Made by a program: the position numbers and the translations under genes. 38,028 bases of DNA, taken from Candidatus Peribacteria bacterium (lineage in GTDB: Bacteria; Patescibacteriota; Gracilibacteria; UBA1369; UBA12463). The DNA lies in the NCBI GenBank assembly GCA_943354965.1, contig CALRDN010000002.1, positions 1 through 38,028 on the forward strand, given 5' to 3'. Under the pieces are notes generated by a model that worked only from the letters and a program-made list of their open reading frames with translations, had not been told where the DNA came from and ran no database searches. The first letter of the stretch is position 1; each line of letters starts with the position of its first letter. Below, in pieces: positions 18,426 to 37,765 of this stretch.

Positions 18426-19373
18426 ATGAACATCACCGCCATCATTCTCACCCTCCTCGGCCTCTCCCTCTTTGAAATTATCACGAGTATAGATAACGCC
18501 ATCATCAACGCTGAGGTTCTCGGCGGAATGAGTAAAAAAGCTCAGCGCTGGTTCCTCCTTTGGGGATTTTTCTTCGCCGTATTCGTCGTAAGAGGTCTTC
18601 TGCCACTCGTCATTGTCTGGGTAGCCAATCCAGGAATCGGCATACTGGAAGTATTTACCGCCGCATTCTCCAATGACCCAAAAATTGCTGCCGCCATCGA
18701 GGCAACCTCCCCACTTCTCCTCATGGCAGGTGGCGTCTTCATGATCTTTCTCTTCTTCAACTGGCTCTTCCTGGAAACCAAAAATTTCGGACTCAAGGGT
18801 GAACGATTTTTTCAAGCTCATGGAGCGTGGTTTTTCACGATCGTCTCGGTCATGCTTGCTGTCATCGTCTGGTACGCCATCAAGATTAGTCCACTTCTTG
18901 GATTTTCAGCCGTAGTAGGTTCTACTGCCTTTTTCATCATTCACGGCTTCCGGCAATTCGCCGAAGAACAGGAAAAGAAACTCATAAATGGAAGTAATAT
19001 GTCTGACGTCAGCAAGATCGCCTACCTCGAGGTTCTCGACGCAACATTTTCCATCGACGGAGTCGTGGGAGCCTTCGCCTTCACATTCTCCATTCCACTG
19101 ATTCTTATTGGAAATGGCATCGGTGCGCTCGTCCTGCGCAAACTCACCATCAGCAACATCGAACGAATCAAGCGTTACAAATATCTAAAAAACGGTGCCA
19201 TGTACTCCATTTTTGTTCTCGGCGCGGTAATGGTTCTCGATGCATTTGGCTTTCACATCCCGCATTGGATATCTCCCGTCGCCACGTTCGCGGTAGTCGG
19301 GTATTTCTTCTGGAAGTCACGAATAGATATCAAGGCCATGGAACAAGCGTTAGAGCCTGCTATTAACGTATAA
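18426..19373 (+). CDS. DUF475 / TerC-like integral membrane protein
   Basis: 315-aa protein with about seven to eight membrane helices. Two internal acidic membrane motifs, LFEIITSIDNAIINAEVL at about 15-32 and LEVLDATFSIDGVVGAFAF at about 201-219, repeat the SxDN/SxDG theme of the TerC/LysE-like superfamily and fit DUF475 (PF04332). TerC-type proteins are linked to metal-ion handling and export. The direct substrate is not shown here. It ends 4 nt before the first Cys-rich gene, so the two are probably cotranscribed. Confidence 0.9.
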   Translation: MNITAIILTLLGLSLFEIITSIDNAIINAEVLGGMSKKAQRWFLLWGFFFAVFVVRGLLPLVIVWVANPGIGILEVFTAAFSNDPKIAAAIEATSPLLLMAGGVFMIFLFFNWLFLETKNFGLKGERFFQAHGAWFFTIVSVMLAVIVWYAIKISPLLGFSAVVGSTAFFIIHGFRQFAEEQEKKLINGSNMSDVSKIAYLEVLDATFSIDGVVGAFAFTFSIPLILIGNGIGALVLRKLTISNIERIKRYKYLKNGAMYSIFVLGAVMVLDAFGFHIPHWISPVATFAVVGYFFWKSRIDIKAMEQALEPAINV

Positions 19374-19377
19374 ATCT

Positions 19378-21054
19378 ATGCAATCATCCTGCAAAAAATG
19401 TAGCACTTCATTCGAAATTTCTGATTCCGATATTGCCTTTCTCGACAAAGTCGCACCTGAATTTAATGGCGTTAAATATGGAATAACTCCGCCTACACTC
19501 TGTCCAGGCTGCCGACAAATTCGCCGACTCACGCACGTAAATGAAATTAATCTCTACAAAAGAAAATGTGATAAAACCGGAAAAGATATTCTCTCCAATT
19601 ATCACTCATCGCAACCTCATACGGTTTATAACCAAGAATACTGGTGGTCCGACGACTGGGATGCACTGAGCTACGGCAAAGAATATGACTTCAGTAAGCC
19701 ATTTTTTCAACAAATAAATGAGTTATTTTTACAAGTTCCACGCCCAAGTCTTTTTACCGGATTCCGTTATGATGAAAATTGCGACTACACCAATTACGCC
19801 GGGAAGAATAAAAACTGCTACTTAATTTTTGATGCGGATTATTGTCGAGACACCTACTACTCTTATAGCTCCAACCACAACACGAACTGCATAGATGGCT
19901 ACCGTACGCGCGAATCAGAACTATGCTACGAATCAGTCGACTGCAAAAACTGTTACAACTGCAACTATATCTCCAACTCTGTACAATGCACCGATAGCGC
20001 CTTTCTCGATAATTGCGAAGGATGCAAAAACTGTTTCATGAGTTGCAATCAACAACACAAACAATATTTTATCAACAATCGCCAAGGTACCAGAGAAGAG
20101 TATGAAGCGCTTATGGCTGAGTTAAAAACACATACCGGAGTTGAAAAATATAAGAAAGAATTTGAAAATCTTCGCATATCTACTCCGAAAAAATATCTCC
20201 ACGGCACGCAAAATGAAAACGTATCCGGAGACTATATATCCAACTGCAAAGATGTTCAGGACTCATTCGACTGTAACGATGTTCGCGATGGCAAATATAT
20301 CTATCAAAGTTTCGGATCCAACATAATAGACTGCCAGGACTGCGACGAAATCGGTGACAATGCAGAGCTATGTTACGAAAGTTCAAACTCGGGATACAAC
20401 GCCAATCACGTTCTCTTCGGCACCAATATCCTCGATCAAAATAGTGATATTATCTATAGCAACCACTGCCACTACAGCTCAAATTTATTTGGCTGTATCG
20501 GATTAAAGCGCAAAAAATACTGCATTCTCAATAAAGAATATTCGAAGGAAGAATATGAAACATTGGTACCAAAAATCATCGAACATATGAAGAGTACCGG
20601 AGAATGGGGCGAGCACTATCCCGAAACCATCTCCCCTTTCGCATACAACGAATCAATGGCAATGGAATACAAACCCCTCACGAAGGAACAAGCCCTTGCG
20701 CAAGGAGCAACATGGAGAGAAGACGACAAAAAGAAAGTTCCAGCAACATGCGAAATTCCGGAGTCCATAGGCGAAACAAAGAATTCGATTACCCAAGAAA
20801 CTCTCGCCTGTAGCTCATGTAAGAGCAACTACAAAATCATCCCCCAAGAACTCGAATTCTACCGCACAAAAGGCATTCCCATCCCAAAAAAATGTTTCAA
20901 ATGCCGCCATTACGACCGTATGCGCACCCGCAACCCACGACAGCTGTGGGATCGAAGCTGCGCAAAATGCTCAACCTCAATTCGCACGTCTTATTCTACA
21001 AATAGACAAAAGCAAATACTCTGCGAAAAGTGCTATCTTGAGGCGGTATATTAA
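19378..21054 (+). CDS. Cys-rich multi-zinc-ribbon protein, copy 1 (complete)
   Basis: 558-aa cytoplasmic protein of a family I know only as uncharacterised, CPR-associated and sometimes mislabelled caib/baif. An N-terminal zinc ribbon has Cys5/Cys8 and Cys42/Cys45. A YNQEYWWSDDWDALSYG motif is at about 83-99. A Cys/Asn/Tyr-rich core (about 130-230 and 290-385) has recurring C-x-NC and S-N-S elements that suggest a beta-solenoid. SNLFGCIGLKRKKYCILNK at 368-386 is the best conserved block among paralogues. The C-terminus has two more ribbons (C478/C481 with C506/C509, and C528/C531 with C549/C552) and ends in CYLEAVY. It is cotranscribed with the DUF475 gene, and a terminator follows at 21098. 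It could bind several zinc or other metal ions. Function unknown. Confidence 0.85.
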   Translation: MQSSCKKCSTSFEISDSDIAFLDKVAPEFNGVKYGITPPTLCPGCRQIRRLTHVNEINLYKRKCDKTGKDILSNYHSSQPHTVYNQEYWWSDDWDALSYGKEYDFSKPFFQQINELFLQVPRPSLFTGFRYDENCDYTNYAGKNKNCYLIFDADYCRDTYYSYSSNHNTNCIDGYRTRESELCYESVDCKNCYNCNYISNSVQCTDSAFLDNCEGCKNCFMSCNQQHKQYFINNRQGTREEYEALMAELKTHTGVEKYKKEFENLRISTPKKYLHGTQNENVSGDYISNCKDVQDSFDCNDVRDGKYIYQSFGSNIIDCQDCDEIGDNAELCYESSNSGYNANHVLFGTNILDQNSDIIYSNHCHYSSNLFGCIGLKRKKYCILNKEYSKEEYETLVPKIIEHMKSTGEWGEHYPETISPFAYNESMAMEYKPLTKEQALAQGATWREDDKKKVPATCEIPESIGETKNSITQETLACSSCKSNYKIIPQELEFYRTKGIPIPKKCFKCRHYDRMRTRNPRQLWDRSCAKCSTSIRTSYSTNRQKQILCEKCYLEAVY

Positions 21055-21097
21055 ATATGATACAATAAGGTCGAAATGGTAGGTTTGGATATCAAAA

Positions 21098-21130
21098 GAG
21101 CCGCTCAATAACGAGTGGCTCCTTTGTTGT
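21098..21130 (+). terminator. Terminator after the copy 1 Cys-rich gene
   Basis: Nine-bp stem GAGCCGCTC / GAGTGGCTC (one G-T pair) with a 6-nt loop (21098-21121), followed by CTTTGTTGT. Confidence 0.75.
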
Positions 21131-21555
21131 GCCAGAAACTGGTGGTCATTATACCAAAAAGTTCGGACTCATTTCCAGCAGAACCCCGACTGATGTGGCA
21201 CGCGCGGAGCGCGTGGTGGCTCTAAACTGAATCATACGCTCCACGAAAGCCCCGTCACCACCTCGCTTCACTCAGCAACCCCAAAAAGAAAAAAGTTCCT
21301 TGCTTTTCTGATTTTCGCGGGGGTGGATTTTTTCTAAAATGGAAAGGACATTTTTCTTTTTGGGGTTCTGCCCTCCAAGTATTCGGGCAGTGTGGCGGGG
21401 CTTCAATTCGGATTCGGTTTTGCGAAAACTATTTTCTGGGGATTGGATTTTCGCAAAACCGAGACTAATTAGTTTTTGGATTTTGTCCGCGCGGAGGAGG
21501 GGTCTGGGGAGGAATCCGCGCGGGCTTTCCGTTTCCTAAAAATTATTTTGCGTAT
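21131..21555. repeat. Gene-free stretch dense in inverted repeats
   Basis: No convincing gene. In about 350 bp there are CACGCGC-3 nt-GCGCGTG (21199-21215), CTGCCC/GGGCAG, a perfect 14-bp inverted repeat CGGTTTTGCGAAAA / TTTTCGCAAAACCG (21415-21428 and 21448-21461), and the 8-bp palindrome CCGCGCGG twice (21487-21494 and 21516-21523). G/C-rich clusters here contrast with the A/T-rich genes that follow. It marks the left edge of the presumed acquired block and could be an element end, a recombination site or structured RNA. Confidence 0.6.
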
Positions 21556-22713
21556 TTAATAATCGTAGAGATGTTCAATTTTGACACCATCAGTATTTAA
21601 GCTATTCAAAATTGAACTAAGTGATTTTATCGTAGCCTTGATAGCAATTCTTTGTAAATTAGGTTGTGTTAAGATTTCCATCTTGAAAAGGATATCGCCA
21701 CTGTCTAAATTGTATTCCCAATCTTTCGGGGCGATAGCTGTTAGAAAAATCTCGTCATTGCCTGCGATATCAATAAATTGAACGCCCGAATTAGCAAGTT
21801 GGGGAACAATTTCAGTAAATAATCTATAACGAGGAATCTTTATGATGTATGAGCCATCGCTATTTACCTTGATGTTTTTGACTAGAGGATTTTTAACAAA
21901 TACATCTTCCGAAACATTTGCGATTTGTGCATAAACTTCTACTGGCGCTTTTCCATAAAGTGCTCGTGTTCCTAATTTTATCAACCCGCCATAAATAGTT
22001 TCTACTCCAAACTCGAGACTTAGGATTACTTTACGCTCCCATTTACGCAAAATATTTGGTCCAAAAAAGTTTGTATCTAGCCAAAGAGCACCAAAACTTT
22101 TGGCAAACGAAAATTCATACCAAGGATAATCATAAATAAAAGCTACATAATCTTTGTTCACTTGGAACGCGAACAAATCCTCATCCGTTTGCTCATTAGA
22201 ACTAATCCATTCAGTAATTCTGCCAACTGTATTTTCATAAACCCCTTTCACTGCATTTTCAACAGTAAAACTTGTACCGATTACCCAAAGCATAAAATGA
22301 TCTCCGAGATTAAATCCGTATTGTCTACCGGTTATTTTATAGACAGTGCAGTAACTTGACCAAAACTGACCAATTGAAGAAAAATAAGGAAACCCACTCG
22401 GTTTGTTTTTCTCAAGCCAATTCGCATATTCTTCCGAACTATAGACAATGTGCCATTCAGGATAAGTTAGATATGTGCTTTCTTCTGTGCGTTGATAACC
22501 TTCAATGTCGGGGGGAACGACTATTTCAGATTGGGCTTGACTGGTTGATTCTGGGATAGAGACAAAGGAACACCCAACCTTGAAACTCAAAAATGAAATT
22601 AGTAGCATACAAAATATCGCAATAACTGCGATTTTTGTTTTGCGCCAGCGAACAAAAAAGTTTTTAAATGTTTGGCGAACGATTTGCCATCGAGTTTGAT
22701 TTTCCATTGACAT
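21556..22713 (-). CDS. Hypothetical membrane-anchored protein, 385 aa
   Basis: Not recognised. A basic N-terminus and one membrane helix (about 27-48) place the rest outside the cytoplasm or in the periplasm-like space. The large soluble part has conserved-looking aromatic motifs, YLTYPEWHIVYSSEEYANWL at about 81-100 and FPYFSSIGQFWSSYC at about 108-122. Start may be Met1 or Met3. The 5' end overlaps the 3' end of the DUF4383 gene by about 50 bp in the same direction, so the two are translated from one message. Codon use is A/T-richer than in flanking genes. Part of the presumed acquired block. Confidence 0.75.
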   Translation of the reverse strand: MSMENQTRWQIVRQTFKNFFVRWRKTKIAVIAIFCMLLISFLSFKVGCSFVSIPESTSQAQSEIVVPPDIEGYQRTEESTYLTYPEWHIVYSSEEYANWLEKNKPSGFPYFSSIGQFWSSYCTVYKITGRQYGFNLGDHFMLWVIGTSFTVENAVKGVYENTVGRITEWISSNEQTDEDLFAFQVNKDYVAFIYDYPWYEFSFAKSFGALWLDTNFFGPNILRKWERKVILSLEFGVETIYGGLIKLGTRALYGKAPVEVYAQIANVSEDVFVKNPLVKNIKVNSDGSYIIKIPRYRLFTEIVPQLANSGVQFIDIAGNDEIFLTAIAPKDWEYNLDSGDILFKMEILTQPNLQRIAIKATIKSLSSILNSLNTDGVKIEHLYDY

Positions 22714-23116
22714 ATTTACTTAGGAAGAAGCCGATGATAGCCATACTACCACCAATCAAGATATGCGGAACATTTACCGCTATTCGCGTGGCCAGTTCTG
22801 GAATAGCTGGATTTGAAGAAAAAATACCAAAATCTAAAAGGCCTTTGCCGATAAAAATACCAATAACCCCATCAAGTAAATATACCGATCCAAACCACCT
22901 GAAATAAAATGTTGTGGCCTTCATTGAATACCAACCTGCAATCAATGCCCATACAGCGGATCCTAAATGGAGAAGGTCATCGATCAAGTCGAGATGAAAG
23001 AGTCCAAACATATTACCCTGCTCGTCATGTATAGCTGGTATGTAGTTTAGTAAAACCACACCAAAAAATAGTGCAGAATAAACGAAAGCGAGTTTTTGAA
23101 TCAGTGATTTTTTCAT
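22664..23116 (-). CDS. DUF4383-like membrane protein
   Basis: 150-aa protein with four membrane helices (about 8-26, 47-65, 72-95 and 112-133). The second helix starts with LDLIDDLLHLGSAVWALIAG, which fits DUF4383-type small membrane proteins (family assigned from memory). Function unknown. First gene of a two-gene minus-strand unit with the 385-aa protein, divergent from the FAD-linked oxidase over a 66-bp A/T-rich gap. Confidence 0.7.
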   Translation of the reverse strand: MKKSLIQKLAFVYSALFFGVVLLNYIPAIHDEQGNMFGLFHLDLIDDLLHLGSAVWALIAGWYSMKATTFYFRWFGSVYLLDGVIGIFIGKGLLDFGIFSSNPAIPELATRIAVNVPHILIGGSMAIIGFFLSKYVNGKSNSMANRSPNI

Positions 23117-23182
23117 AGTGAAATTTAATAAAAACTGATATAATCATAATACCATATAATTCTGTCAACCACCTAATTTCAT

Positions 23183-24760
23183 ATGAAAAAGTTTTTCCAC
23201 AAAAAGCAGGTTGTAATAATGTCAGTAATTGTAGGATTTTTTGTGTTTGTAAGTTTAAAAGCATATCAGTACGCTACAGCACCGAACAAAGCAAAAAATT
23301 GCGATTTTATTTACACTAATGGAATAGACCAAACTAAGCCGACCACAATAACAATTTCGTCTGAACAATTACTAGAGTTCAAACAGAAAGGTGGTTTTAC
23401 TAATGACGCAAGTTGCTTAAATAAAACTTCTGTCTATGGAGTAGTTAAAGTATCCTCTGTCGAGGACGTTAAAAATGCTTTGTTTTTTGCAAAAGAGAAT
23501 AAATTGAAAGTGACAAGTGCCGGACAGCAACATAGTATGGGCGGTCAATCTTTTATTCAAAACGGGTTAGTGTTAGACATGAAAAGTTTTCAGCAAATGA
23601 AGCTGGATAAAGAGAATAAAATACTGAATGTTCAAAGCGGTGCAATATGGGCAGATGTACAGCAGTTTCTTGATAAGGAGGGGCTTGCGGTAAAAGCAAT
23701 GCAGTCAATAAATATTTTTACGGTGGGCGGTACTTTAAGTGTTAATGCCCATGGTATTGCACACGATCCAGGGCCAATTGCCCCAACGGTAAAATCAATG
23801 CAGGTTATGTTAAGCAATGGTGAAATCAAAACCGCAAGCCCTACTCAAAATCCAGAGTTATTTAAATCAGTTTTAGGAGGTTATGGTTTATTCGGGGTAA
23901 TTCTAGATGCTAATTTGGAAGTCGTGGAAAATGAAATGTACAAATGGACAAGAGATTTTATGGACTATAAAGATTTTCCAGAATATTACAAGAAAAACAT
24001 AGAAAATAATGACAATATCGGTTTGCTTTATGGCAGATTATCTATGTCCCCAACTTCATACCTAACAGACACAATTATTCATAAGTATGAGAAGGTAGAA
24101 TTTGATGGACCAACCCCAGTTCTTGAATTTCCACAGAACACATGGATTAACCGGTTGGTATTCAACTTTTCTAAAACTGGAGGATTTGGTCGCTGGACAC
24201 GATGGATGCTAGAAAAATACGCCGAACCAAAACTCCATTTGTGTTCAAGAAATCAAGCAATGAGCCAAAAAGAGGTTTGCGTAGTTACAAGAAATCAAGA
24301 AATGTATGACGCAATGGGTTATTTAAAAAATAAACTAAAAGATACAGACATTTTGCAAGAGTATTTTATTCCTCACGAAAAAATGCCAGAGTTTGTTGAC
24401 GGGTTAAGAAAGACGGTGAAAGAAAACGGAGCAAATCTTTTGAATGTGACTATCCGAATTGTCAGCAAAGACAACATTACTGCTTTGCCATATGCGAAAG
24501 AAGATATGTTCGCTTTTGTTCTGTACTTCAATCAAAAATTTAATGATAAAGAAAGCAAAATTTTACAGAAAACAACAACTGATTTGATTGATGTCGCTAC
24601 TAATGTTGGTGGCACATACTATTTGCCATATCAACTTTATTATTCAGAAGAACAACTACACAAGGCATATCCTGAGATTGATGCTTTCTTTGCGACAAAG
24701 AGAAGATTTGACCCAATTGCTCTGTTAACGAATAAGTTTTACGAAAAATACGCAAAATAA
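23183..24760 (+). CDS. FAD-linked oxidase of the vanillyl-alcohol oxidase / aldonolactone oxidase family
   Basis: 525-aa flavoprotein. Residues 8-28 form one membrane anchor or uncleaved signal. An FAD-binding PCMH domain spans about 75-260: VYGVVKVSSVEDVKNAL, then AGQQHSMGGQSF (a His-containing flavin-site loop), SGAIWADVQQFL, and VGGTLSVNAHGIAHDPGPI. The C-terminal half fits a sugar/alditol- or lactone-oxidase substrate domain. The substrate is unknown. It may act outside the cytoplasm. Its 3' end lies 13 bp from the truncated Cys-rich gene. Codon use is A/T-rich like that of the two divergent neighbours. Confidence 0.85.
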   Translation: MKKFFHKKQVVIMSVIVGFFVFVSLKAYQYATAPNKAKNCDFIYTNGIDQTKPTTITISSEQLLEFKQKGGFTNDASCLNKTSVYGVVKVSSVEDVKNALFFAKENKLKVTSAGQQHSMGGQSFIQNGLVLDMKSFQQMKLDKENKILNVQSGAIWADVQQFLDKEGLAVKAMQSINIFTVGGTLSVNAHGIAHDPGPIAPTVKSMQVMLSNGEIKTASPTQNPELFKSVLGGYGLFGVILDANLEVVENEMYKWTRDFMDYKDFPEYYKKNIENNDNIGLLYGRLSMSPTSYLTDTIIHKYEKVEFDGPTPVLEFPQNTWINRLVFNFSKTGGFGRWTRWMLEKYAEPKLHLCSRNQAMSQKEVCVVTRNQEMYDAMGYLKNKLKDTDILQEYFIPHEKMPEFVDGLRKTVKENGANLLNVTIRIVSKDNITALPYAKEDMFAFVLYFNQKFNDKESKILQKTTTDLIDVATNVGGTYYLPYQLYYSEEQLHKAYPEIDAFFATKRRFDPIALLTNKFYEKYAK

Positions 24761-24773
24761 TTTTTAGGAAAAC

Positions 24774-26006
24774 GTGATGTACTCCTACTGGATGGTAAAA
24801 GACACCGATGTTGTCGACTCATCATATACGAGCAATTCCACCCTCGGTTACGAGTGCACTCACGGAGAAAAACTTTACAACACGATCATGGTGGAAGAAT
24901 CGAACAACACAAGCGATTCCGCTTTCTGCTACCAAATTCGAGGCTGTGATCACTGCATGTTTTCTTCAAATATTGCAAACAAAAGTTACTACCTCTTCAA
25001 TAAACCATGTACGAAAGAAGAATTTGAAGAGGCAAAAAAGAAATACCTCAATGGCTCACATACCAGCTGGAAAGAAGCCATTTCTCAATTCGAAAACATC
25101 AAAAAATCAACCATTCGTCGAGCCACAAACAACATCAACTGTGAAAATGTAACAGGTGATCACATGTTCAACTCAAGAAACTGTGAAAATGCTTTTGAGG
25201 GAAAAGATTCGGAAGATGTCTATAATTCCGTATCAACCGGAGACTCCAAGGACCTCTACAGCATCTACTCCGCAGGCTGGCCACGATGCGAACTTATTTA
25301 CTACAGCTCTGTATCTCGCGGCTGCACCGACTGCCGATTTTGCTACTACTGCTGGCACTCAAACGACCTCTCCTACTGCGATAGCTGCTCAAGTTCCACA
25401 AGCTGTTTCGGCTGCATCGGCCTGCGACACAAGAAATATTGCATCCTCAATAAGCAGTATACGAAGGAAGAATATGAGGCATTGATGCCAAAAATCATGG
25501 AGCATCTCAAGTCTACCGGCGAATTGGGAAAATTCTTCCCGCACAGCCTCTCGACATTTGCCTACAACGAAACAAGCGCTGCAAACTTCTATCCCCTCTC
25601 AAAAGAAGAAGCTCTCGCGGGCGGCTGGAGATGGAGAGAAAAAGAAAAACAAGATTATCTCCCTGCCACAATTCCTGCACTTCCGGAAAATATACAAGAC
25701 GCCAAAGAAACCATCACAAAAGAAATTCTCGCCTGCACCTCCTGCACCAAAAATTACAAAATCATTCCTCAGGAACTTTCATTCTATCAAAAAATGAATC
25801 TCCCACTCCCCCGATTTTGCCCTACTTGCAGGCATGCTCGACGCCTCTCGCTCGACAATCCTCTGGAACTTTTCAGCGACATCTGCCCTAAGTGTAAAAT
25901 GCAAATTCAGACGAGTTATCCGCCGAATCATCCCCACTCTAGCAAGAGTGCCCCTTGGGGGGAAACAGTCTACTGCGATGCGTGTTATTTGGAGACGATG
26001 AACTAG
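24774..26006 (+). pseudogene. Cys-rich multi-zinc-ribbon protein, copy 2 (N-terminally truncated)
   Basis: The 410-aa frame from GTG 24774 or ATG 24777 aligns with copies 1 and 3 from about their residue 161 onward: YSYW against YSYS, then SCFGCIGLRHKKYCILNKQY and the two C-terminal zinc-ribbon pairs. The N-terminal ribbon and the YWWSDDW region are absent. An in-frame stop lies at 24765-24767, so no upstream remnant joins it. The break coincides with the end of the acquired block. The remaining frame is intact over 400 codons, so it may be young or still expressed. It overlaps the convergent HNH gene by 4 bp. Confidence 0.75.
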
Positions 26007-26830
26007 CCACGCCATCTCATCTCCTGATATTTCACATCAATACTATGTGCAATTTGATGATGCTCCTTGCATAATGGTGCCATGAAGTTTGGATCATGCG
26101 ATGGATTTAGACCAAACCGACTAGTATGATGAACATCTGCTGATGGCTTATAACAGCCATTTTTAGCACATTTTTGTCCATACTCTTTTTTGAGAATGTT
26201 TTTGACTCTTGCTGGAATATATCTGGAGGACGACTCAGGAAGCTCCTCTGCGATCTGATCTTTTGCTTGCGCGATTTTCTCTTCTCTTTGATGGAGAAAC
26301 TCCAACAATGCCTCATTCACATCTATGCCTTTTTCTTTGAGTTCCTTGAGTCGTTTCTGCACCTTTTCATCAAAGCCATACTCATCTTGCAAAGATAAAG
26401 TTTTACTTTCTGGTTTCTGGCCGACCATAGAATCCAGCTTCAGATCTTGAATATATGTTTTCAAAGCAGACAAAGAAAATAATTGCACCTTCTCTGCCAA
26501 CTCGGACTCATTCTCAGCCGTCGCTATACTCATTACTCTGACAATTTTGTTCACACTAACTTCACCACGTTCCAATAACCCCTTCAAAACAGGTTTATCC
26601 TCCAATCTTGAAGCAACGTTCAATGACTCAGCCACTTGCGCCATGCTTAATCCCGCCAAGCGTTCTCCAAACTCATAAACACTTAAACAACCTTTCTTCC
26701 GATACAACTTCCTCCTCTCGACCTCTGGTAACAACGCTCTAAACTTATTTCTCCACAACAGTGCCTCCCTCCCAAACTTCACACATTGTTCCAGTAATAC
26801 TTTATTCGAGAGATTCTTCAAATCATTCAT
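26003..26830 (-). CDS. DUF222-like protein with C-terminal HNH nuclease domain (copy 2)
   Basis: 275-aa predicted endonuclease. Residues about 45-130 match the DUF222/13E12 pattern (CLSVYEFGERLAGLS... LEDKPVLKGLLERGEVSVNKIVRVMSIAT). A charged helical hinge covers 145-205. Residues 219-262 are the HNH domain: Cys221/Cys226, HH 234-235, His245 in NPSHDPNFMAPLC, Cys254, HH 257-258 and His262. It is closest to copy 3 (36839), sharing even the SSRYIPARVKNILKKEYGQ lead-in, and more distant from copy 1. A structured leader and extended -10 promoter precede it. A mobile or self-regulating nuclease is possible; the substrate is unknown. Confidence 0.87.
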   Translation of the reverse strand: MNDLKNLSNKVLLEQCVKFGREALLWRNKFRALLPEVERRKLYRKKGCLSVYEFGERLAGLSMAQVAESLNVASRLEDKPVLKGLLERGEVSVNKIVRVMSIATAENESELAEKVQLFSLSALKTYIQDLKLDSMVGQKPESKTLSLQDEYGFDEKVQKRLKELKEKGIDVNEALLEFLHQREEKIAQAKDQIAEELPESSSRYIPARVKNILKKEYGQKCAKNGCYKPSADVHHTSRFGLNPSHDPNFMAPLCKEHHQIAHSIDVKYQEMRWRG

Positions 26831-26843
26831 AGGAAAAAAATTA

Positions 26844-26943
26844 AAAAAATAAAAACAAACGGGAGAACTAAATCCTGGTCGCCCATGAGGCCGACCGTTG
26901 TGTAGGACTTATTCCTTAACCGTTTTGTAGATACATTATAGCA
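26844..26943 (-). promoter_or_regulatory. Promoter and structured leader of HNH copy 2
   Basis: Minus strand: extended -10 TGC-TATAAT (26935-26943). The leader then carries the 32-nt block at 26899-26930, 31/32 identical to that of HNH copy 3. A hairpin follows (26877-26896, GGTCG...CGACC). The leader's AAACGG (26920-26925) can pair with CCGTTT (26857-26862), and T-rich runs follow before the ATG. It could be an attenuator or a protein-binding leader. Confidence 0.6.
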
Positions 26944-27067
26944 AATTATCCGCAGAGAATACACGTAAATACAACATTATAACGTGACAATTATAACAAA
27001 AATGATAGAGTATATTTTGCACGGAAAACCAGCAAAATAATCGCAGCAATAAGCCAAGCAAAACCAT

Positions 27068-27817
27068 CTACTCATATTTCCCCGCCGCCTCCCATGCGAG
27101 CTCAAACGTCTGTTTGAAAACTTTCACAATTTCTTCGCTCTCAATAATAATTCCTAATTTTTCTTTCCAATCGGCAATCATCATTTTATTATCAAAAAAA
27201 TTTACTTCAGGAGTGAAATCGAGCTTGTCCTTCGGCAATAATCGACTCTGGCGCAACTCAACACTATCTAACGCATGACGCTCGCGATCCTTCGGCGTAT
27301 CGGGAAATAATGCACGAATAGAAATTTTCTTCTCAGCACGTCGCTTGTAATACTGCGGGAAATACCACGGAATCGCATCTTGATTCGCCTGATCCGAAGC
27401 ATAGGCAAGAATTTCCCCACTCGACGATAATGTCTCCTCATACACACGTATCAGACCCTCATCACCTTCGTAGAAATACACCTTAGGACGACCGGAAGCG
27501 CGATAATGAACATTGAGCTCTGGAAGCATCGCCGACGCCTCCTGCGCCAAGTGAGAGAACTTTTCACTCTGCTCTTTCAGATACGCCACGATCTTCTCCG
27601 GAGGAAGCGCCTCGTAATACCGACTCGACTTTTTCTTCTGACTAATCACAAGCCCCTTCTCCAATAAAATTTCCAAAATATCATAGGTCGTCGTTCTATT
27701 CACTACAGCCTTCTTAGCAATCGTCGATACCGGCGAACTCACCCCGAGCCCCATGAGGGCCATATACACCGCCGCCTCTTTCGAACTTAATCCCAATTTG
27801 AGAAGTTGTGCCATCAT
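27068..27817 (-). CDS. TrmB-family transcriptional regulator
   Basis: 249-aa regulator. The N-terminal winged HTH (about 1-70) matches TrmB: LLKLGLSSKEAAVYMALMGLG, then AKKAVVNRTTTYDILEILLEKGLV. An alpha/beta sensor part follows (GRPKVYFYEGDEGLIRVYEETL, then FFDNKMMIADWKEKLGIIIES), similar to the PLD-like ligand region seen in TrmB proteins. The ligand and targets are unknown. It is divergent from the small ORF and copy 3 of the Cys-rich family, so control of that unit is possible. Start is Met1 or Met2. Confidence 0.85.
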   Translation of the reverse strand: MMAQLLKLGLSSKEAAVYMALMGLGVSSPVSTIAKKAVVNRTTTYDILEILLEKGLVISQKKKSSRYYEALPPEKIVAYLKEQSEKFSHLAQEASAMLPELNVHYRASGRPKVYFYEGDEGLIRVYEETLSSSGEILAYASDQANQDAIPWYFPQYYKRRAEKKISIRALFPDTPKDRERHALDSVELRQSRLLPKDKLDFTPEVNFFDNKMMIADWKEKLGIIIESEEIVKVFKQTFELAWEAAGKYE

Positions 27818-27859
27818 AAACGTAAAAGTAAATTGTGTGGAAATATTTCGTCAGAATTA

Positions 27860-27889
27860 ATAATACATCTAATTCATAGCCGATGTAAA
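27860..27889 (-). promoter_or_regulatory. Promoter of the TrmB-family gene
   Basis: Minus strand: -35 TTTACA (27884-27889), 18-bp spacer and -10 TATTAT (27860-27865). Confidence 0.45.
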
Positions 27890-27932
27890 GCTAAAATATA
27901 GACTTACTACTGTCAGAAAGATTCAACAATAA

Positions 27933-27960
27933 TTGACACTGTACGGAATATATGTTTAAT
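27933..27960 (+). promoter_or_regulatory. Promoter of the 77-aa gene and Cys-rich copy 3
   Basis: Consensus -35 TTGACA (27933-27938), 16-bp spacer and -10 TTTAAT (27955-27960). The expected start is near 27967, about 30 nt before the ATG at 27998. Confidence 0.6.
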
Positions 27961-27997
27961 TGTTTTCGTAAACAGATGACATCAATCATCCTCAACT

Positions 27998-28231
27998 ATG
28001 CGTATCACTATCGAATCACCACCAGAGACAGAAGAAAATCGTGACGAGCTGCATGGCATCCAGGATCTTATCCGTGAATTAATAGATGAACGAATATGGC
28101 ATATAGACCTTTCAAAATGGGAGAGAGGAATGTTACATATTGATGTAGAACCGGATGATACAGACTGGAGAATAATTCGTACTACCGTTAAGATTACAAG
28201 GAGTCTTGAATTCCGCATATTAAATACATAA
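27998..28231 (+). CDS. Hypothetical 77-aa acidic protein
   Basis: Not recognised. Small, soluble and acidic (many D and E in the first 40 residues), with an amphipathic helix (ENRDELHGIQDLIRELIDERI) followed by probable beta-strands (WHIDLSKW, MLHIDVEP, RIIRTTVKIT). It has its own good promoter and lies 35 nt upstream of the preferred start of the Cys-rich copy 3 gene, so the two are probably cotranscribed. Copies 1 and 2 have no such partner. Confidence 0.6.
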   Translation: MRITIESPPETEENRDELHGIQDLIRELIDERIWHIDLSKWERGMLHIDVEPDDTDWRIIRTTVKITRSLEFRILNT

Positions 28232-28266
28232 CAACGCCGATGAAAGTAAAACATTATTTTAAACCC

Positions 28267-29925
28267 ATGAATAAAACCTGCGCTACCTGCCAACAAGCAT
28301 TTGAATTCACTCCTGAAGAACAAGCTTTCCTTCTCAAAATCAGGCCAACCTACGGCACAGAAACATTTGAAATTCCGCAGCCCTCCAACTGTCCATCATG
28401 CCGACTTGCCAATCGCACAGCCTACCGCAACGAGCAGTACATGTATCGCAATACATCTGCGATTACAAATAAACCTCTCATCGCCCTCTACTCAAAAGAT
28501 TACAAAATTGTCACACACGAAGAATGGTGGAGTGAGAACTGGGATGGACTTACCTACGGTCAAAATTATGACTTTAATAGGCCATTTTTTGATCAGTTTC
28601 ATGAACTCTGCCTGAAAATTCCCCACGTAAATCTCATCCAGCTCAACAACGAAAACTGCCCCTATACAACTGGAACAGCATTCTGCAAAAACTGCCACCT
28701 CATCAACTGCTCAGAAAATTGCGAGGACTGTTGTTATGGAAAATTGATTCAATCATCACGGGATATCATGGATTCGGATTATGTGTACGATAGTGAACTC
28801 CTCTATGAATGTTTCAACGTCAAAAACTGCAACAACTGTATTTACACATCCTATAGCCAAAATTCATTCGACTGTGCCTTCAGTGAAAACCTCAAAGGTT
28901 GCAAAAACTGCTTCCTCTGCACCAACCTCAACAACAAAGAATATCACTTCATGAACGAACCGGTAAGCAATGAGGTCTACCAAGAAAAAATAAAAGAGTT
29001 TTTCGGATCAAACAACGCCATTCAAAAAGCCAAAGAAATTCTCAATACCCTCCGAGAAAAGCGCATTCACAAGTACTCAAACATCATGAACAGCGAGAAC
29101 TCAACAGGAGATTTTCTCTCTAACTGCCGTAATTGCACGGATTGTTATGACACCAATGACAGCGAAGACTGCAAATATGTAAATGTAGGAGTAAATGTAA
29201 AAGACATCTACGACTGCAGTAATATGTACCTCAAGCCGGAATTAAATTATCAAGTTCTTGGGACCATCGAGACCTACAATGTTATATTTTCTCTCTACGT
29301 TTTTCACAGTCAAAATGTCGCCTACAGCGAGTTTTGCTTCAACTCATCAAATCTCTTTGGTTGTAGCGGTCTGAGGAAAAAGCACTACTGCATCTTCAAT
29401 AAGCAGTATACGAAAGAAGAATACGAAATTCTCGTTCCTCAAATCATAAAACACATGCAACAGACGGGCGAGTGGGGTAAGTTCTTCCCCATGAACTACT
29501 CCCCTTTCGGCTATAACGAGACCGTCGCACAGGATTACCTTCCCCTCACAAAAGAGCAGGCACAGGCCAGAAACTATAATTGGAAAGATCCTGATCAGAA
29601 AGACTACCTCCCGCAATCCTACAAAACTCCCGACCGAATCGAAGAGGCAACAAATGACATTCTCAAAGAAACTCTCGCCTGCGTTTCTTGTGGAAAAAAC
29701 TACAAAATCATTCTCAAAGAACTCGAAAGACTCCGCCAACTCAATCTCCCAATCCCCCACTACTGCCCAGACTGCCGCCATGCGCTGCGCATGCTCTTAC
29801 GCAACCCGCCACATCTCTTTAACCGGCCATGTAACAAATGCTCAACTCCCATCCAAACAACGTATTCTTCTGATCGCCCCGAAATCGTCTACTGCGAAAG
29901 ATGTTATCTTGAGGCGGTTTATTAA
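28267..29925 (+). CDS. Cys-rich multi-zinc-ribbon protein, copy 3 (complete)
   Basis: About 552 aa, the full-length paralogue of copy 1 and collinear with it. It has an N-terminal ribbon (CATC... CPSCRLANR), a HEEWWSENWDGLTYGQNYDF motif, a Cys/Asn/Tyr-rich core, and the SSNLFGCSGLRKKHYCIFNKQYTKEEYE block. The C-terminal ribbon pairs are CVSC...CPDC and CNKC...CERC, and the protein ends CYLEAVY like copy 1. The frame opens at 28240, but the ATG at 28267 puts the first CxxC at the same distance from the start as in copy 1 and is preferred. No signal peptide or membrane helix. Function unknown. Confidence 0.85.
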   Translation: MNKTCATCQQAFEFTPEEQAFLLKIRPTYGTETFEIPQPSNCPSCRLANRTAYRNEQYMYRNTSAITNKPLIALYSKDYKIVTHEEWWSENWDGLTYGQNYDFNRPFFDQFHELCLKIPHVNLIQLNNENCPYTTGTAFCKNCHLINCSENCEDCCYGKLIQSSRDIMDSDYVYDSELLYECFNVKNCNNCIYTSYSQNSFDCAFSENLKGCKNCFLCTNLNNKEYHFMNEPVSNEVYQEKIKEFFGSNNAIQKAKEILNTLREKRIHKYSNIMNSENSTGDFLSNCRNCTDCYDTNDSEDCKYVNVGVNVKDIYDCSNMYLKPELNYQVLGTIETYNVIFSLYVFHSQNVAYSEFCFNSSNLFGCSGLRKKHYCIFNKQYTKEEYEILVPQIIKHMQQTGEWGKFFPMNYSPFGYNETVAQDYLPLTKEQAQARNYNWKDPDQKDYLPQSYKTPDRIEEATNDILKETLACVSCGKNYKIILKELERLRQLNLPIPHYCPDCRHALRMLLRNPPHLFNRPCNKCSTPIQTTYSSDRPEIVYCERCYLEAVY

Positions 29926-30007: not shown

Positions 30008-30310
30008 ATGGCAAAAGCAACCGCAAAAACTTCTGTACACAAAAGCGCATCATTTATTTATTTCTGGTTGGGACTCCTTACGGGAGCTCTCGTTATCATT
30101 ATGACGCTCATGATGCAATCAGCTCTTAGTGACGGACAGGCTTCAATATTTAGTGGCTACAAGGTACGAGGCATCACAAACCCACAAACAATGAATGGCA
30201 TCACAAACCCACAGACAAGAACCGGGATTACAAACCCACAAACAATGAATGGCATCACAAACCCTCAAACCATGAATGGGATTACAAATCCTCAGACAAT
30301 GGGACAATAA
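30008..30310 (+). CDS. Small membrane-anchored protein with five GITNPQTMN repeats
   Basis: 100-aa protein. Residues 1-14 are polar and basic. Residues 16-37 form one membrane helix (FIYFWLGLLTGALVIIMTL). Then come a short spacer and, from residue 55 to 99, five uninterrupted 9-residue repeats (GITNPQTMN, one variant ending RT, the last ending MG). The repeat tail probably lies outside the membrane. It has its own promoter and a strong terminator, so it is a discrete gene. Family not recognised. The tail could be an adhesion or binding module or a slippage-driven spacer. Confidence 0.75.
   Translation: MAKATAKTSVHKSASFIYFWLGLLTGALVIIMTLMMQSALSDGQASIFSGYKVRGITNPQTMNGITNPQTRTGITNPQTMNGITNPQTMNGITNPQTMGQ
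30170..30304 (+). repeat. Five 27-bp tandem coding repeats
   Basis: Units begin at 30170, 30197, 30224, 30251 and 30278. The unit encodes GITNPQTMN. Third-position differences (cca/cct, aac/aat, atc/att) with conserved residues suggest selection on the peptide and not only slippage. Confidence 0.95.
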
Positions 30311-31054: not shown

Positions 31055-34000
31055 TTACACAAAACTATATTGTACCAAACCTCTTTCCTCCAAGAGATCC
31101 ATTGCCATCTCAACAGATTTTGTCTTCACCCTCACGGCCTGATCATATGAAGGCAAGCGAACCTTCGTCGGCGTACGAAATTCCTCGGTAAGAGCATGCA
31201 ACGAGTGAAGGAGATGAGCATGTTGGGCATCACAATTTCCAAGCTGAGTAAGAAGTCCTTTAAACACCCACTGCACCTCCTCACTATCAAATTGAGTACT
31301 TCCAACAGCCAAACGTGCCAAGCACGGAGCAATATAAAGATTCCAATATGCACTCGCCTTACCGTTTTCACCTAATTTCGTCATACGTTCATAAAAAGTA
31401 GGAGCAGAGGTCTTGCCATCAGGCAACAAGTGCGTAGGACTCAAAACGCGCTTCATCGCCTCCTCCAATAGATGAAGCACATCAGGATCTAAGGGTCGAT
31501 TAAAAGCCGTATGCGAATTCATCATCGTTTCAAGAATATCGAGAATATTCACCATAGCCGTATCAAAATTGGATGAGTGGCTAATATCAGCGGTAATACG
31601 AGCAGCTTGCTCAGAATATTGATGAGCCTTCTTGAGAATATATTGAAGTGAAGTAAAGGCATCATGATCATCAGGAGACTCACCCTGCTCACTACGACGT
31701 ATCAATGAGGCAATAGACATAATAAGCTTCTGAAAATCTTCATCATGAGGATTTGTAAGGAAGTGTTTAGCCATATTACTAAGCATAGAAGTTGCGCCAT
31801 CGGTAATATCCGCAAAACGTTCCGGATCACCATAGCGATGAGCATCGCTACGCGCATCCAAGAAGGATTCAAAAGATTCATAATATTTTCCAAGCATACC
31901 AAGCGTACGAGCAAAAGCCTGTTTAGCCCGATAAACCTGTGTTCTATCCATAACCTGATCAGGATGCTCGGTCGCCTGGCTCAAATATGAGCGAAACAAC
32001 GCTTCAGCATGCAAAAGATGATGGTGCATTGAACTATTGGGATCTCGAGAAGAAACAATACAGGCCTCCTCATCTTCATGAGCAAAAATTGTACCTTCCA
32101 ATCCGGGAACTTCAGCACGGTTAAAGCCCATAAGCCAGCCATTAGCTCCGACTCTCGTCGCCTCAAGATTAAGTCGTTGAAAACGAGGATCAAATTCCAT
32201 ATCAGGAAATTCTCGATTCAAATTGCGACTGCGTATCTCAAATTGAGACGCATACATCTCGCAAGCTTGCGCATAGCGCTGTTGCATATATTCAGCCAAC
32301 ATGAGATAAAACGATTCTTTTATTTCAAAAAATCTCCCCTCTTTGAATTTAATGTCGCTGTTCGCATTGAAAAATAAATCACTTCCAAAACCACTTCCCC
32401 ACTCGGCCAGTTTTTTGGTACTTTCTTCCCGAAGTGCTTCGGATGTACCTTTCATAATATAAAAAGTACACATCAAATCATAAAGATGTTCAATACGAGC
32501 AATAAGAACTTTGTCGTATTGTGTGGATTGCAATAATAACTTCAAATATTTTTCCTTCAAACCTTCCCCAAGAGTTACGGCCATCTCACCCCAATCTTTA
32601 CGTAAAACCGTCATAGAATGAAGCACCGAAAGCTGCAATGCATCATCATTCGCAATCGCAGAAAGAAGTGTAGGATTAGACTGAACAACGGACTTATATA
32701 TTGATAAAGTTGCGGTATGATCGCCTACTTTATAGGCCTCCGTGAGAGCCCTAATAGCATATCCCTCAGCCAGTTTAGATAAACTACCAGATGCAGAGGC
32801 ATGCGTAACAATAGCCCGTGGATTGCATCGCTCAAGAATAGATACCAGATGGGGATTTGTACCGCCACTCGCTCTTGCCTGCATATCGAACATAAATTTG
32901 GCAATAACTCGATGAGCCTCGGCATATAATGGAGCGTAAGATGAACCTTCATCGGTAAATTCTTTTTTTAATCTCGTACCGACGAGATCCTGAGAGAAAG
33001 AAAGTGTAGCCTCATCCCGATCGCCAATTTGCTGAAGCCCGATAGTCTGCTGGGCAACTAACTGGCTATATGCATTTGCAAGTTCTGGTTTTTTCAAAAC
33101 ATTCGTAAGAAATTTCAAAAATAAATCCGCATCACATGCACCCGATTCACGGAAGGCCACCAAGTGTAACAATACATCTCTATAATGTTCATTCTGCAAC
33201 AATCGATCAACTTTTGTAGTTACAATATTATCAGCCTCACCTGTCTCAGTCCACGCCATAAAGCGAATATGATCCACCGTAAGCCTTCCATTCTTTATAG
33301 AAATAACGCCATCCTGATACATACTTTGAACAACTTCCGTTAAAATGCCGGGGTTTCCTTGAGATATTTTCGCAAACCGCTTGAGATAATCTTTACGAGA
33401 AGGAACATCAAAATCAGGAACATGAAGAAGATCTGCCACAAAAGAAGAAAGCATTTTTGTTGGCTCACCTTTTTTATCCAAAAAAGCGAGAGGCTCCAAA
33501 AAAATCTCCTCGGAAGTAGCACACTTCATGGCAGCTAAAAGCATCGGACTTTGCACCTCATCGCCCTTACGAGTTAAATTAAGAACGGCCATATTCCCAA
33601 ATGTAGCATTTTGAGCAAATACTTTAGTCGAAAAAGAATTCGACTCGGCATCAGGCCACTGCATATCATCCGGTACCAAGAAAAGTTTAGAAGAAGAAGA
33701 CGGTAAGAATTGAAAAAATGACACTAATAATGTAGAGAGTTGATTTGGTGACATATCAGTCACCAACCCTTGAGTAAACGCGAAAAGCTGTTGATATACC
33801 GGCGTATTGACGATATCAGGTCGTGAAGAAAAGCCTTCCACAAGCCTTCTAGTAAAAGATTTGACATAGTGAAACGGAGCAGCCTTATGGGTATCCATCG
33901 CAGGAGCAAAAACCAATGTGACATCCGGATAATGTTGTTGCACGTACCGAACGATTTCCGCAGCCATTCTTGTCTTTCCCATCATGGGGTCACCATGAAT

Positions 34001-34936
34001 CGTTAAACTGCTATATTCTCCAGAACATAACGTCTGATCAACCCACTTCCGAATTTGAGCTTCCTCATTTGCTCGTCCATATTGTTTCTCGGCTCCACCG
34101 GCACGGATGCTGTTGATAGCAGGCTTAAGTTGTATCTCGCGGAAGCGCTTTCCGAGCCATCCTATTGGTATCGTGGAAAACTCCGCATCAATATAAACTT
34201 TAACTCGAGGATGTTGAGCGGCACGCATAAAAGCTTCTTCACTAATAAACATCGACATTTCAGTCAAACGCGAGAAACCCTTGCCGGCTTCACGTTGAAA
34301 CGTGTCCAAAACAGAAGAAGTATCCTGTTGTTTCTGATAATGCATAAACATTACTGACGGCGCTGGAAGTTTCTGAGCTATAGATGCCTTACGAATATCG
34401 TCATAAATTTCCGAAGTAGGCACAGCAGATCGCTCACCGGAACAAGAATATATCCATACAGATCCTTTTGGAGAGATAGAAACTTTTTTAAAATTCGGAG
34501 TACCTCGTAAAATTATTCGCTGAATAGTAATATCATCTAAAGCAGTAGAAAAGGCGGCACAAGAAGCACTTCGCATAGAAAGCGGTTCCCTCTCAAAAAC
34601 CCGAGCATCAAATGCAACATCCTCGCGAGTAGTATCGACAGCACTCAACGCAGTAGAAACCTGTCGAGAAGCTTCAAGTTGACCGAAGCCAACCACCCTA
34701 AGAAATTGATCGGCACTACCTCTTCTATCTCGAGGAGGTGGAATAACGGTAGGATGCGGCTCCCTATTACCCTCATCGATAGCAATAGCATTAGGTGCCG
34801 AAACAGCATCTACGGCTAAACTTCCGGGAATATACGTAGGAGCAGGAAGACGTCCAGTATCATTTTGGGGGGGCGAAACAACATTGAAATCTAATTCTGC
34901 AGTATCATTTGGAGTTTTAGGTATATTTCCTGACAT
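31055..34936 (-). CDS. STAND-like AAA ATPase, 1293 aa
   Basis: Large signalling-type ATPase. Residues 1-70 are Pro-rich and disordered-looking. Residues 110-280 form an unrecognised alpha/beta domain. The nucleotide-binding domain follows, with Walker A HGDPMMGKTRMA at about 314-325 and a Walker B-like strand KLFLVPDDMQWPD at about 417-429. A winged-helix-like segment ends near residue 570. From about 650 to the end the protein is all-helical, consistent with TPR-type repeats. This is the plan of STAND ATPases (MalT/LAL type). No C-terminal LuxR HTH or effector domain is recognised, so the output is unclear. It stands alone between the lipoprotein and smpB. Immune or regulatory roles are both possible. 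Confidence 0.75.
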   Translation of the reverse strand: MSGNIPKTPNDTAELDFNVVSPPQNDTGRLPAPTYIPGSLAVDAVSAPNAIAIDEGNREPHPTVIPPPRDRRGSADQFLRVVGFGQLEASRQVSTALSAVDTTREDVAFDARVFEREPLSMRSASCAAFSTALDDITIQRIILRGTPNFKKVSISPKGSVWIYSCSGERSAVPTSEIYDDIRKASIAQKLPAPSVMFMHYQKQQDTSSVLDTFQREAGKGFSRLTEMSMFISEEAFMRAAQHPRVKVYIDAEFSTIPIGWLGKRFREIQLKPAINSIRAGGAEKQYGRANEEAQIRKWVDQTLCSGEYSSLTIHGDPMMGKTRMAAEIVRYVQQHYPDVTLVFAPAMDTHKAAPFHYVKSFTRRLVEGFSSRPDIVNTPVYQQLFAFTQGLVTDMSPNQLSTLLVSFFQFLPSSSSKLFLVPDDMQWPDAESNSFSTKVFAQNATFGNMAVLNLTRKGDEVQSPMLLAAMKCATSEEIFLEPLAFLDKKGEPTKMLSSFVADLLHVPDFDVPSRKDYLKRFAKISQGNPGILTEVVQSMYQDGVISIKNGRLTVDHIRFMAWTETGEADNIVTTKVDRLLQNEHYRDVLLHLVAFRESGACDADLFLKFLTNVLKKPELANAYSQLVAQQTIGLQQIGDRDEATLSFSQDLVGTRLKKEFTDEGSSYAPLYAEAHRVIAKFMFDMQARASGGTNPHLVSILERCNPRAIVTHASASGSLSKLAEGYAIRALTEAYKVGDHTATLSIYKSVVQSNPTLLSAIANDDALQLSVLHSMTVLRKDWGEMAVTLGEGLKEKYLKLLLQSTQYDKVLIARIEHLYDLMCTFYIMKGTSEALREESTKKLAEWGSGFGSDLFFNANSDIKFKEGRFFEIKESFYLMLAEYMQQRYAQACEMYASQFEIRSRNLNREFPDMEFDPRFQRLNLEATRVGANGWLMGFNRAEVPGLEGTIFAHEDEEACIVSSRDPNSSMHHHLLHAEALFRSYLSQATEHPDQVMDRTQVYRAKQAFARTLGMLGKYYESFESFLDARSDAHRYGDPERFADITDGATSMLSNMAKHFLTNPHDEDFQKLIMSIASLIRRSEQGESPDDHDAFTSLQYILKKAHQYSEQAARITADISHSSNFDTAMVNILDILETMMNSHTAFNRPLDPDVLHLLEEAMKRVLSPTHLLPDGKTSAPTFYERMTKLGENGKASAYWNLYIAPCLARLAVGSTQFDSEEVQWVFKGLLTQLGNCDAQHAHLLHSLHALTEEFRTPTKVRLPSYDQAVRVKTKSVEMAMDLLEERGLVQYSFV

Positions 34937-37648: not shown

Positions 37649-37659
37649 AGAAATAAGAT

Positions 37660-37765
37660 GAATAAATAAAAAACAAACGGTAGAAATTATCCCGGCCACC
37701 TCCCAAAAGAGACGAACCAATGTGTAGGACTAATTCCTTAACCGTTTTGTAGGGCAATCATAGCA
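37660..37765 (-). promoter_or_regulatory. Promoter and structured leader of HNH copy 3
   Basis: Minus strand: extended -10 TGC-TATGAT (37757-37765). The leader has the 32-nt block at 37721-37752, matching copy 2 except for one base. The leader's AAACGGT (37741-37747) can pair perfectly over 7 bp with ACCGTTT (37675-37681), followed by GTTTTTTATTT just before the ATG, a terminator-like arrangement. Confidence 0.6.

Follow-up and report, generated by a model that had tools for sequence, protein, structure and literature searches.

In type IV secretion systems (T4SSs), VirD4 proteins are normally membrane-anchored, and effectors of the X-T4SS carry a C-terminal XVIPCD that is recognized by VirD4. 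Patescibacteria contain 5,713 coupling-protein homologues in 2,918 genomes, only 148 of which lie near virB4; most are orphans, far from virB4, with no known partners (PMC12102498). Here we describe a protein family that is a candidate partner for one orphan ATPase group. It is represented by three genes, copies A, B, and C, in a 38,028-nucleotide stretch of DNA from a Candidatus Peribacteria bacterium (contig CALRDN010000002.1, positions 1 to 38,028), referred to below as the window. Full-length members have about 560 amino acids (aa) and are predicted to hold a Cys-rich solenoid core between two treble-clef modules, or ribbons. Two observations are new: the family co-occurs with one VirD4/TrwB-like ATPase orthologue group, and family genes are paired with a TrmB-type regulator.

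An ATPase of 740 to 780 aa with T4SS-DNA_transf, TrwB, and HerA domains was found beside family genes at 24 loci. It scored above the Pfam cutoffs for PF02534 (E value, 3e-10; 39.9 bits), PF10412 (E value, 2e-8; 34.3 bits), and PF01935 (33.4 bits). DUF87/HerA was also matched (E value, 6e-8), as was TraG-D_C in two members tested, and matches to the PADLOC HerA and Mad8 models were weak. Every genome encodes several coupling-type ATPases, and a single orthologue group tracks the family. Orthologues were called at an E value of ≤1e-190, with paralogues elsewhere at 1e-98 to 1e-160. Of 59 related genomes, 43 had family matches, which numbered 1 to 30 in each and were often arranged in tandem. 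The ATPase orthologue was present in 39 of the 41 relatives with full-length members and in 0 of the 18 without; G015 was counted among the 39 by a 75%-identical ATPase fragment that abuts the end of a contig, whereas the matches in G029 and G031 were no more than weak or short and placed these two among the 18. In a sample of 380 genomes from the phylum, 53 had a profile match and 29 had full-length members; the orthologue was present in 26 of these 29 versus 0 of the 351 others. Fisher p values were 3e-13 for the relatives and 3e-37 for the phylum sample and are optimistic, since the genomes are related. Presence and absence alternate within families f2, f3, f4, f8, and f14, indicating that the co-occurrence is not one inherited block.

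Gene position, which is less cutoff-dependent evidence than co-occurrence, was scored in 15 genomes. In 9 of the 15 (0.24 expected), the ATPase orthologue and a family gene were no more than 1 kb apart, with the ATPase mostly downstream and in seven cases on the same strand. None of the 42 other coupling-type ATPases in these genomes was this close. In other classes, gaps of 52 to 460 bp separate the ATPase from a family gene in G282 (78 bp), G146 (52 bp), G071 (252 bp), G379 (255 bp), G325, G405, G300, and G291. The gene order in G021 is ATPase-core-ribbon, with core and ribbon as separate genes. No conserved third neighbor of the ATPase was found, its neighbors being mixed, and apart from TrmB and the ATPase no neighbor family occurred at more than five loci. 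The link between the family and the ATPase is thus well supported by co-occurrence and adjacency. The likeness to T4SS coupling proteins and their clients lies in the ATPase domains (T4SS-DNA_transf, TrwB_AAD_bind, and DUF87) and in the pairing of one ATPase with many client-like proteins that have a conserved C-terminal end. The differences are that neither the ATPase nor the family proteins have a clear membrane segment and that the putative clients are Cys-ladder solenoids and not toxins. No virB genes were recognized among the neighbors examined, although virB4 was not searched for genome-wide.

An earlier note on the window, made from its sequence, had described three paralogous, uncharacterized Cys-rich ribbon proteins. 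The open reading frames (ORFs) of A, B, and C end exactly where it placed them, A and C are 42% identical over their full length, and B is 42% identical to residues 161 to 559 of C. Profile searching found the same architecture at hundreds of loci, so the resemblance is far beyond chance, and the description of a paralogous family stands. The blocks that the copies were said to share are present in A and C, including the N-terminal ribbon and the WW motif (WWSDDWD or WWSENWD), but those two are missing from B, whose N-terminal part is gone. By profile, B covers model positions 148 to 545 only and lacks the N-terminal ~150 positions. The SSNLFGCxGL block of A and C has the counterpart SCFGCIGL in B, and the double ribbon terminates in CYLEAVY in A and C and in CYLETMN in B. 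Elsewhere in this genome (1.16 Mb, 23 contigs) are one further full member (C2:70053-71744) and a core-plus-ribbon pair on C13. Going beyond the earlier note, we found an internal duplication of the core, homology between the N- and C-terminal ribbons, and truncation of B by a genomic rearrangement.

The anatomy of the family was derived from alignment and profile comparison of 95 full-length members. The order is confidently predicted to be a double treble clef, solenoid lobe 1, a helical hinge, a homologous lobe 2, a cap helix and linker, and a second double treble clef with a fixed C terminus. The core is a tandem duplication of a unit of ~140 residues, since lobe 1 matches lobe 2 in hhalign with a probability of 100 and an E value of 1.7e-40. 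The N-terminal ribbons are homologous to the C-terminal double ribbon (N versus C1, probability of 99 and E value of 2e-17; N versus C2, probability of 95 and E value of 1e-8). Most Cys residues of the second N-terminal knuckle have been lost, and WWSD-WD occupies the place of the C-terminal CexCY. The lobes contain 10 to 14% Cys, with C-x2-C pairs. The autocorrelation of Cys positions has its peaks at lags 3, 12, 24, and 9 for lobe 1 and at lags 9, 3, and 12 for lobe 2, and consensus Cys residues at model columns 136, 148, 160, 172, 184, 196, and 208 form a continuous in-register ladder. This ladder could equally be a packed core or a metal-binding one. The C-terminal module has a basic net charge, and the lobes are acidic.

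AlphaFold2 gave copy C a mean predicted local distance difference test score (pLDDT) of 88, with ~70 to 80 in the lobes, and a predicted template modeling score (pTM) of 0.89. For a natural core-only protein, the values were 81.5 and 0.80, and lobe 2 of that model has a strand every six residues, or two strands per 12-residue rung. The solenoid-like core proposed in the earlier note, which disorder would have undone, is therefore predicted to be ordered. Foldseek found no PDB match at an E value of ≤0.001 for the full model or the core. The best full-model hit had an E value of 2.4, and the core matched generic beta-helix enzymes (E values of ≥2.8e-3, TM scores of ≤0.17) that were judged unrelated, so no solved fold could be assigned. 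The beetle (Tenebrio) antifreeze protein is a flat, Cys-rich beta-solenoid with 12-residue rungs. The family shares its 12-residue repeat, Cys richness, and flat rungs but gives no sequence or Foldseek match to it and has two lobes, helical caps, ribbons at both ends, and no signal peptide.

At both ends, CxxC columns are conserved at 55 to 99% and are candidates for the two zinc knuckles of PF13451. These CxxC pairs and sub-threshold treble-clef matches suggest that the ribbons may bind zinc. A few members lack the C-terminal zinc ligands though the surrounding sequence is kept, which indicates that zinc is not essential in all of them. The C terminus is fixed: a tail of exactly 5 residues follows CxxCY in 85 of the 95 members. 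The conserved cap/ribbon end and this tail are a candidate recognition region, but folding of the ribbon would also explain both. Several genomes encode the core (~320 aa) and the double ribbon (~100 aa) in two neighboring genes, demonstrating modularity. The sequences of A and C have no N-terminal hydrophobic segment, and their N termini are the ribbon itself.

The earlier note had assigned these proteins no function, and no prior characterization was found. A, B, and C matched nothing above the cutoffs in Pfam or NCBIfam, copy C matched nothing in PADLOC, phmmer and profile searches of PDB were empty or irrelevant, and no description of the family was found in the literature searched. A known family was therefore rejected. 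The closest models, PF13451 (zf_Tbcl) and PF23477 (zf_Tbcl_2), which describe a probable treble clef, share the CxxC...CPxCR and CxxC...CexCY spacing of the end modules and match weakly at the expected places in A and C. However, PF13451 reached only 16.5 to 17 bits there against a gathering cutoff of 24 bits, treble-clef models touch the protein ends only and are all below their curated cutoffs, and in the family the pair is duplicated at both ends of the solenoid, with a degenerate second N-terminal knuckle. This is an undescribed family assembled from known modules. A phage family of unknown function, phrog_15341 (PHROGs, 276 aa), has a profile that matches single solenoid lobes (E value of 5e-9 for L041:5898-6860), to which composition may contribute, but tblastn of 50,697 phage genomes found no relative of the family. 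IMG/VR gave a single 44-residue match, at a contig end, and a viral origin was dropped.

The nearest named records are metagenome-assembled genomes of Candidatus Peregrinibacteria and Peribacteria, and named records also include Abawacabacteria, Uhrbacteria, Kerfeldbacteria, and Staskawiczbacteria. One record labeled Nitrospirota was not counted as an occurrence outside Patescibacteria, its genome of 0.9 Mb being typical of Patescibacteria. Many of the remaining matches in the phylum sample are the stand-alone double ribbon only. Genomes that lack the full family, among them G083, G316, and G160, encode such PF13451/PF23477-like double treble-clef proteins of ~100 aa.

Local expansion, with functional diversification or repeated recombination, had been suggested for the three copies. 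In a tree of 111 members, the nearest neighbor was in another genome for 109. Distances to the orthologues in sibling genome G001 were 0.10 for A, 0.05 for B, and 0.09 for C versus 1.7 to 1.9 among A, B, and C. Because the nearest relatives lie in other genomes and the orthologues are much closer than the copies are to each other, there has been no recent local expansion. Recent tandem duplication or recombination is rejected on the basis of the tree, the orthologue distances, and synteny. Diversification holds in the sense of distinct, conserved, and ancient orthologue groups but not as a product of local expansion. The full-length orthologue of copy B is L039:15832-17430. Orthologues of copy C in other genera and families are 54 to 91% identical (54 to 66% in other families). 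The ratio of nonsynonymous to synonymous substitution (dN/dS) against the sibling was 0.05 for A, 0.04 for B, and 0.04 for C; the B value may mostly reflect the time before truncation. A, B, and C are ancient paralogues under strong purifying selection.

The local array has shrunk. On the sibling contig G001:C16, the A and B orthologues are separated by ~10.3 kb that contains additional family genes and a TrmB gene. In the window, this place is taken by a segment carrying a 385-aa protein of unknown function, a DUF4383 protein, and a FAD-linked oxidase (23183-24760; FAD_binding_4, DprE1/aldonolactone-oxidase like). By blastn, homology resumes at window position 24768, equivalent to L039 position 16222 and 390 bp inside the B orthologue. 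The genes that lay between A and B were lost through a deletion or replacement that also truncated B; since the sibling array is longer and B is cut at the junction, the window holds a reduced form of an old array. For the junction at 24768, a chimeric contig is a possible alternative. In G002, a deletion took the 5' parts of copy C and its TrmB gene, and the remnants are fused. On the L111 contig, several broken family genes spread over many short ORFs represent a decaying array.

Directly upstream of copy A is a DUF475/TerC-type membrane protein (18426-19373) that adjoins the array in siblings G001 and G002 too. Adjoining copy C and conserved in the sibling is a 1,293-aa protein (31055-34936, minus strand) with an AAA_16/NPHP3_N (STAND-like NTPase) match, and a small membrane-like ORF with tandem repeats (M/R)xGITNPQT lies at 30008-30310. 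HNH-like paralogues with sub-threshold HNH matches were seen at 26003-26830 (minus strand) and on G000:C13 (L048:6138-6956), both family-bearing contigs, with a third similar stretch at ~37266-37751. A reverse transcriptase in two ORFs (L048:98-1138 on G000:C13; RVT_1 E value, 9e-12) has the look of a diversity-generating retroelement and lies 0.8 kb from a core-only member. No template or variable repeat was found in the DNA examined, where the contig ends near this reverse transcriptase, and the idea that such an element acts on the family was set aside.

A TrmB-type helix-turn-helix (HTH) regulator is divergent to copy C, and the same divergent pair is present in many genomes. Pfam matched only the HTH region of the window's TrmB, with no match to a sugar-sensing C-terminal domain. 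In the 15 genomes scored for position, 23 of 93 TrmB genes had a family gene no farther than 1 kb away (1.5 expected), and 21 of the 23 were divergent. An operator-like motif, GTGGAAATATTTCGTCAGA, is kept upstream of TrmB in ~9 copy C orthologue loci while the surrounding DNA has diverged. It occurs once per genome in 13 of the 59 genomes, and a reversed control pattern had 0 matches. The motif is a putative TrmB operator. In G028, it precedes a TrmB gene without a detected family neighbor and so may belong to TrmB autoregulation. Other loci have different inverted repeats at the same place. A small ORF between TrmB and copy C (27998-28231) was dropped as a third partner, no homologue having been found. 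Coordinates are collected in Table 1.

Table 1. Coordinates of family genes, predicted copy C modules, and associated features in the window
Feature	Position	Strand	Basis or remark
Copy A, full-length member, 558 aa	19378..21054	+	Orthologue in sibling G001 is L039:4150-5850
Segment replacing ~10.3 kb of sibling array	21067..24767	.	blastn breakpoints versus L039, gene order
Copy B, 5'-truncated member, 410 aa	24774..26006	+	Lacks N-terminal ribbons and start of lobe 1
TrmB-type HTH regulator, divergent to copy C	27068..27817	-	PF01978, E value of 6.5e-14, 52 bits versus cutoff of 25.6
Operator-like motif GTGGAAATATTTCGTCAGA	27837..27855	.	Just upstream of TrmB start
Copy C, full-length member, 561 aa, TrmB-linked orthologue group	28240..29925	+	
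Copy C N-terminal double treble-clef module, residues ~10-92, second knuckle degenerate	28267..28515	+	Profile-profile match to C-terminal module
Copy C WWSENWD motif	28525..28545	+	Stands where second ribbon of C-terminal module has CxxC-Y
Copy C solenoid lobe 1, residues ~139-241, 12-residue rungs, Cys ladder	28654..28962	+	Cys autocorrelation, AlphaFold2 strands every 12 residues
Copy C helical hinge between lobes, residues ~244-274	28969..29061	+	AlphaFold2 helices 244-254 and 258-274
Copy C solenoid lobe 2, residues ~286-391, ends in SNLFGCxGL...CIFNKQY cap	29095..29412	+	hhalign versus lobe 1
Copy C cap helix, residues ~392-409	29413..29466	+	AlphaFold2; most conserved region
Copy C C-terminal double treble-clef module, residues ~478-561, ends CYLEAVY	29671..29922	+	Sub-threshold zf_Tbcl, zf_Tbcl_2, and SprT-ribbon matches

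The presence of one ATPase and many soluble, conserved partners with no signal peptides and a common C-terminal end favors a model in which the family proteins are soluble clients, either substrates or adaptors, of a dedicated orphan VirD4/TrwB-like coupling ATPase. We hold this model tentatively, at slightly less than an even chance. About one ATPase gene would serve up to ~30 family proteins per genome, recruiting them through the cap/C-terminal double-ribbon end. The ATPase would then move or remodel them, either as one-step export substrates or as adaptors through which something else is presented to it. Target specificity would reside in the solenoid face of the individual paralogue, and the adjacent divergent TrmB-type regulator may control some operons and itself.

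Several points weigh against this model. Client status, physical interaction with the ATPase, and transport and its direction are inferred. In the window's genome, the ATPase (C7:7299-9533) has no detected member nearby, no ATPase orthologue was detected in G011 and G042 although both have the family, and most TrmB genes do not adjoin family genes. The ATPase cutoffs were set after the scores were known, and the gap outside the order is narrow (616 versus 590 to 597 bits); the next-best scores there belong to G245, where a partial family relative lies close to the ATPase, and to G196, where the match is confined to the ATPase domain. No clear membrane segment or signal was found in the ATPase, A, or C; a simple scan gave no hydropathy window above 1.6 in 7 of 8 ATPases, and in the eighth it gave a single borderline window, at residue 341. 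The C-terminal zinc ligands are missing from some members, and the occurrence of ribbons alone in family-free genomes argues against a dedicated export tag. The dN/dS values of 0.04 to 0.05 are unusual for host-targeting effectors, which speaks against an arms-race effector role and not against transport.

Other explanations account for parts of these data. If the ATPase link reflected hitch-hiking on mobile islands, the genes would travel together without working together, and family genes do lie in places near toxin-antitoxin, ORF6N, and other variable genes. However, both genes have been retained time and again in many families and several classes, even when unlinked, as in the window's genome, where ATPase and family genes are on different contigs. 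With the orthologue also present in 0 family-free genomes of either sample, we consider hitch-hiking improbable. A role in nucleic acid handling, with treble clefs that bind DNA or RNA and a family that loads or guides a HerA/FtsK-like DNA-pumping ATPase in uptake, plasmid or replicon handling, or defense, is consistent with the treble-clef/zinc-ribbon ends, the basic C-terminal module beside acidic lobes, and the ATPase matches to DUF87/HerA and TrwB/TraG DNA-transfer models and, weakly, to PADLOC HerA and Mad8. It is nonetheless unlikely, since no nuclease, relaxase, primase, or other DNA enzyme recurs beside the pairs, the family itself has no PADLOC match, and the C-terminal ligands are dispensable in some members.

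The Cys content of the lobes and the in-register ladder with its C-x2-C pairs would suit a cytosolic metal or thiol reservoir or sensor. The ladders and ribbons would then act as a buffer for zinc, iron, or copper, with TrmB-type proteins as sensors of the metal state. Such a role has a low probability: it leaves unexplained both the co-occurrence with one ATPase orthologue group and the distinct ancient paralogues at a dN/dS of ~0.04, ribbon ligands can be lost, and the Cys residues could simply pack the core. The expansion and diversification suggested in the earlier note point toward a further reading, variable proteins of the surface or of host interaction that duplication and recombination have diversified. 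The high copy number, the tandem arrays, and the truncated and lost copies fit that idea, and Candidatus Peribacter, of the same bacterial group, has a gene cluster for high-Cys extracellular proteins (PMC4736985). Those proteins, however, have a mean length of 1,655 aa, and most of them carry signal peptides (PMC4736985), whereas ours have ~560 aa and none. Together with the purifying selection and the nearest relatives in other genomes for 109 of 111 members, this makes a surface role very improbable.

The client model carries a wider suggestion for Patescibacteria. The organisms that carry the family are thought to live attached to other cells. It is possible, if rather doubtful, that the client repertoire of a dedicated ATPase forms a protein-handling/export system of Patescibacteria distinct from the described T4SSs, with cytosolic Cys-ladder cargo or adaptors and TrmB switching individual operons. 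In some very small genomes, the family takes up an appreciable part of the DNA, with as many as 30 matches of ~1.7 kb in a genome of 1.5 Mb, and it is an obvious unannotated target, being under strong purifying selection where tested and having a predicted fold without a PDB match. Its strict co-occurrence with the ATPase names a partner family for one orphan ATPase group and makes the role of that group testable.

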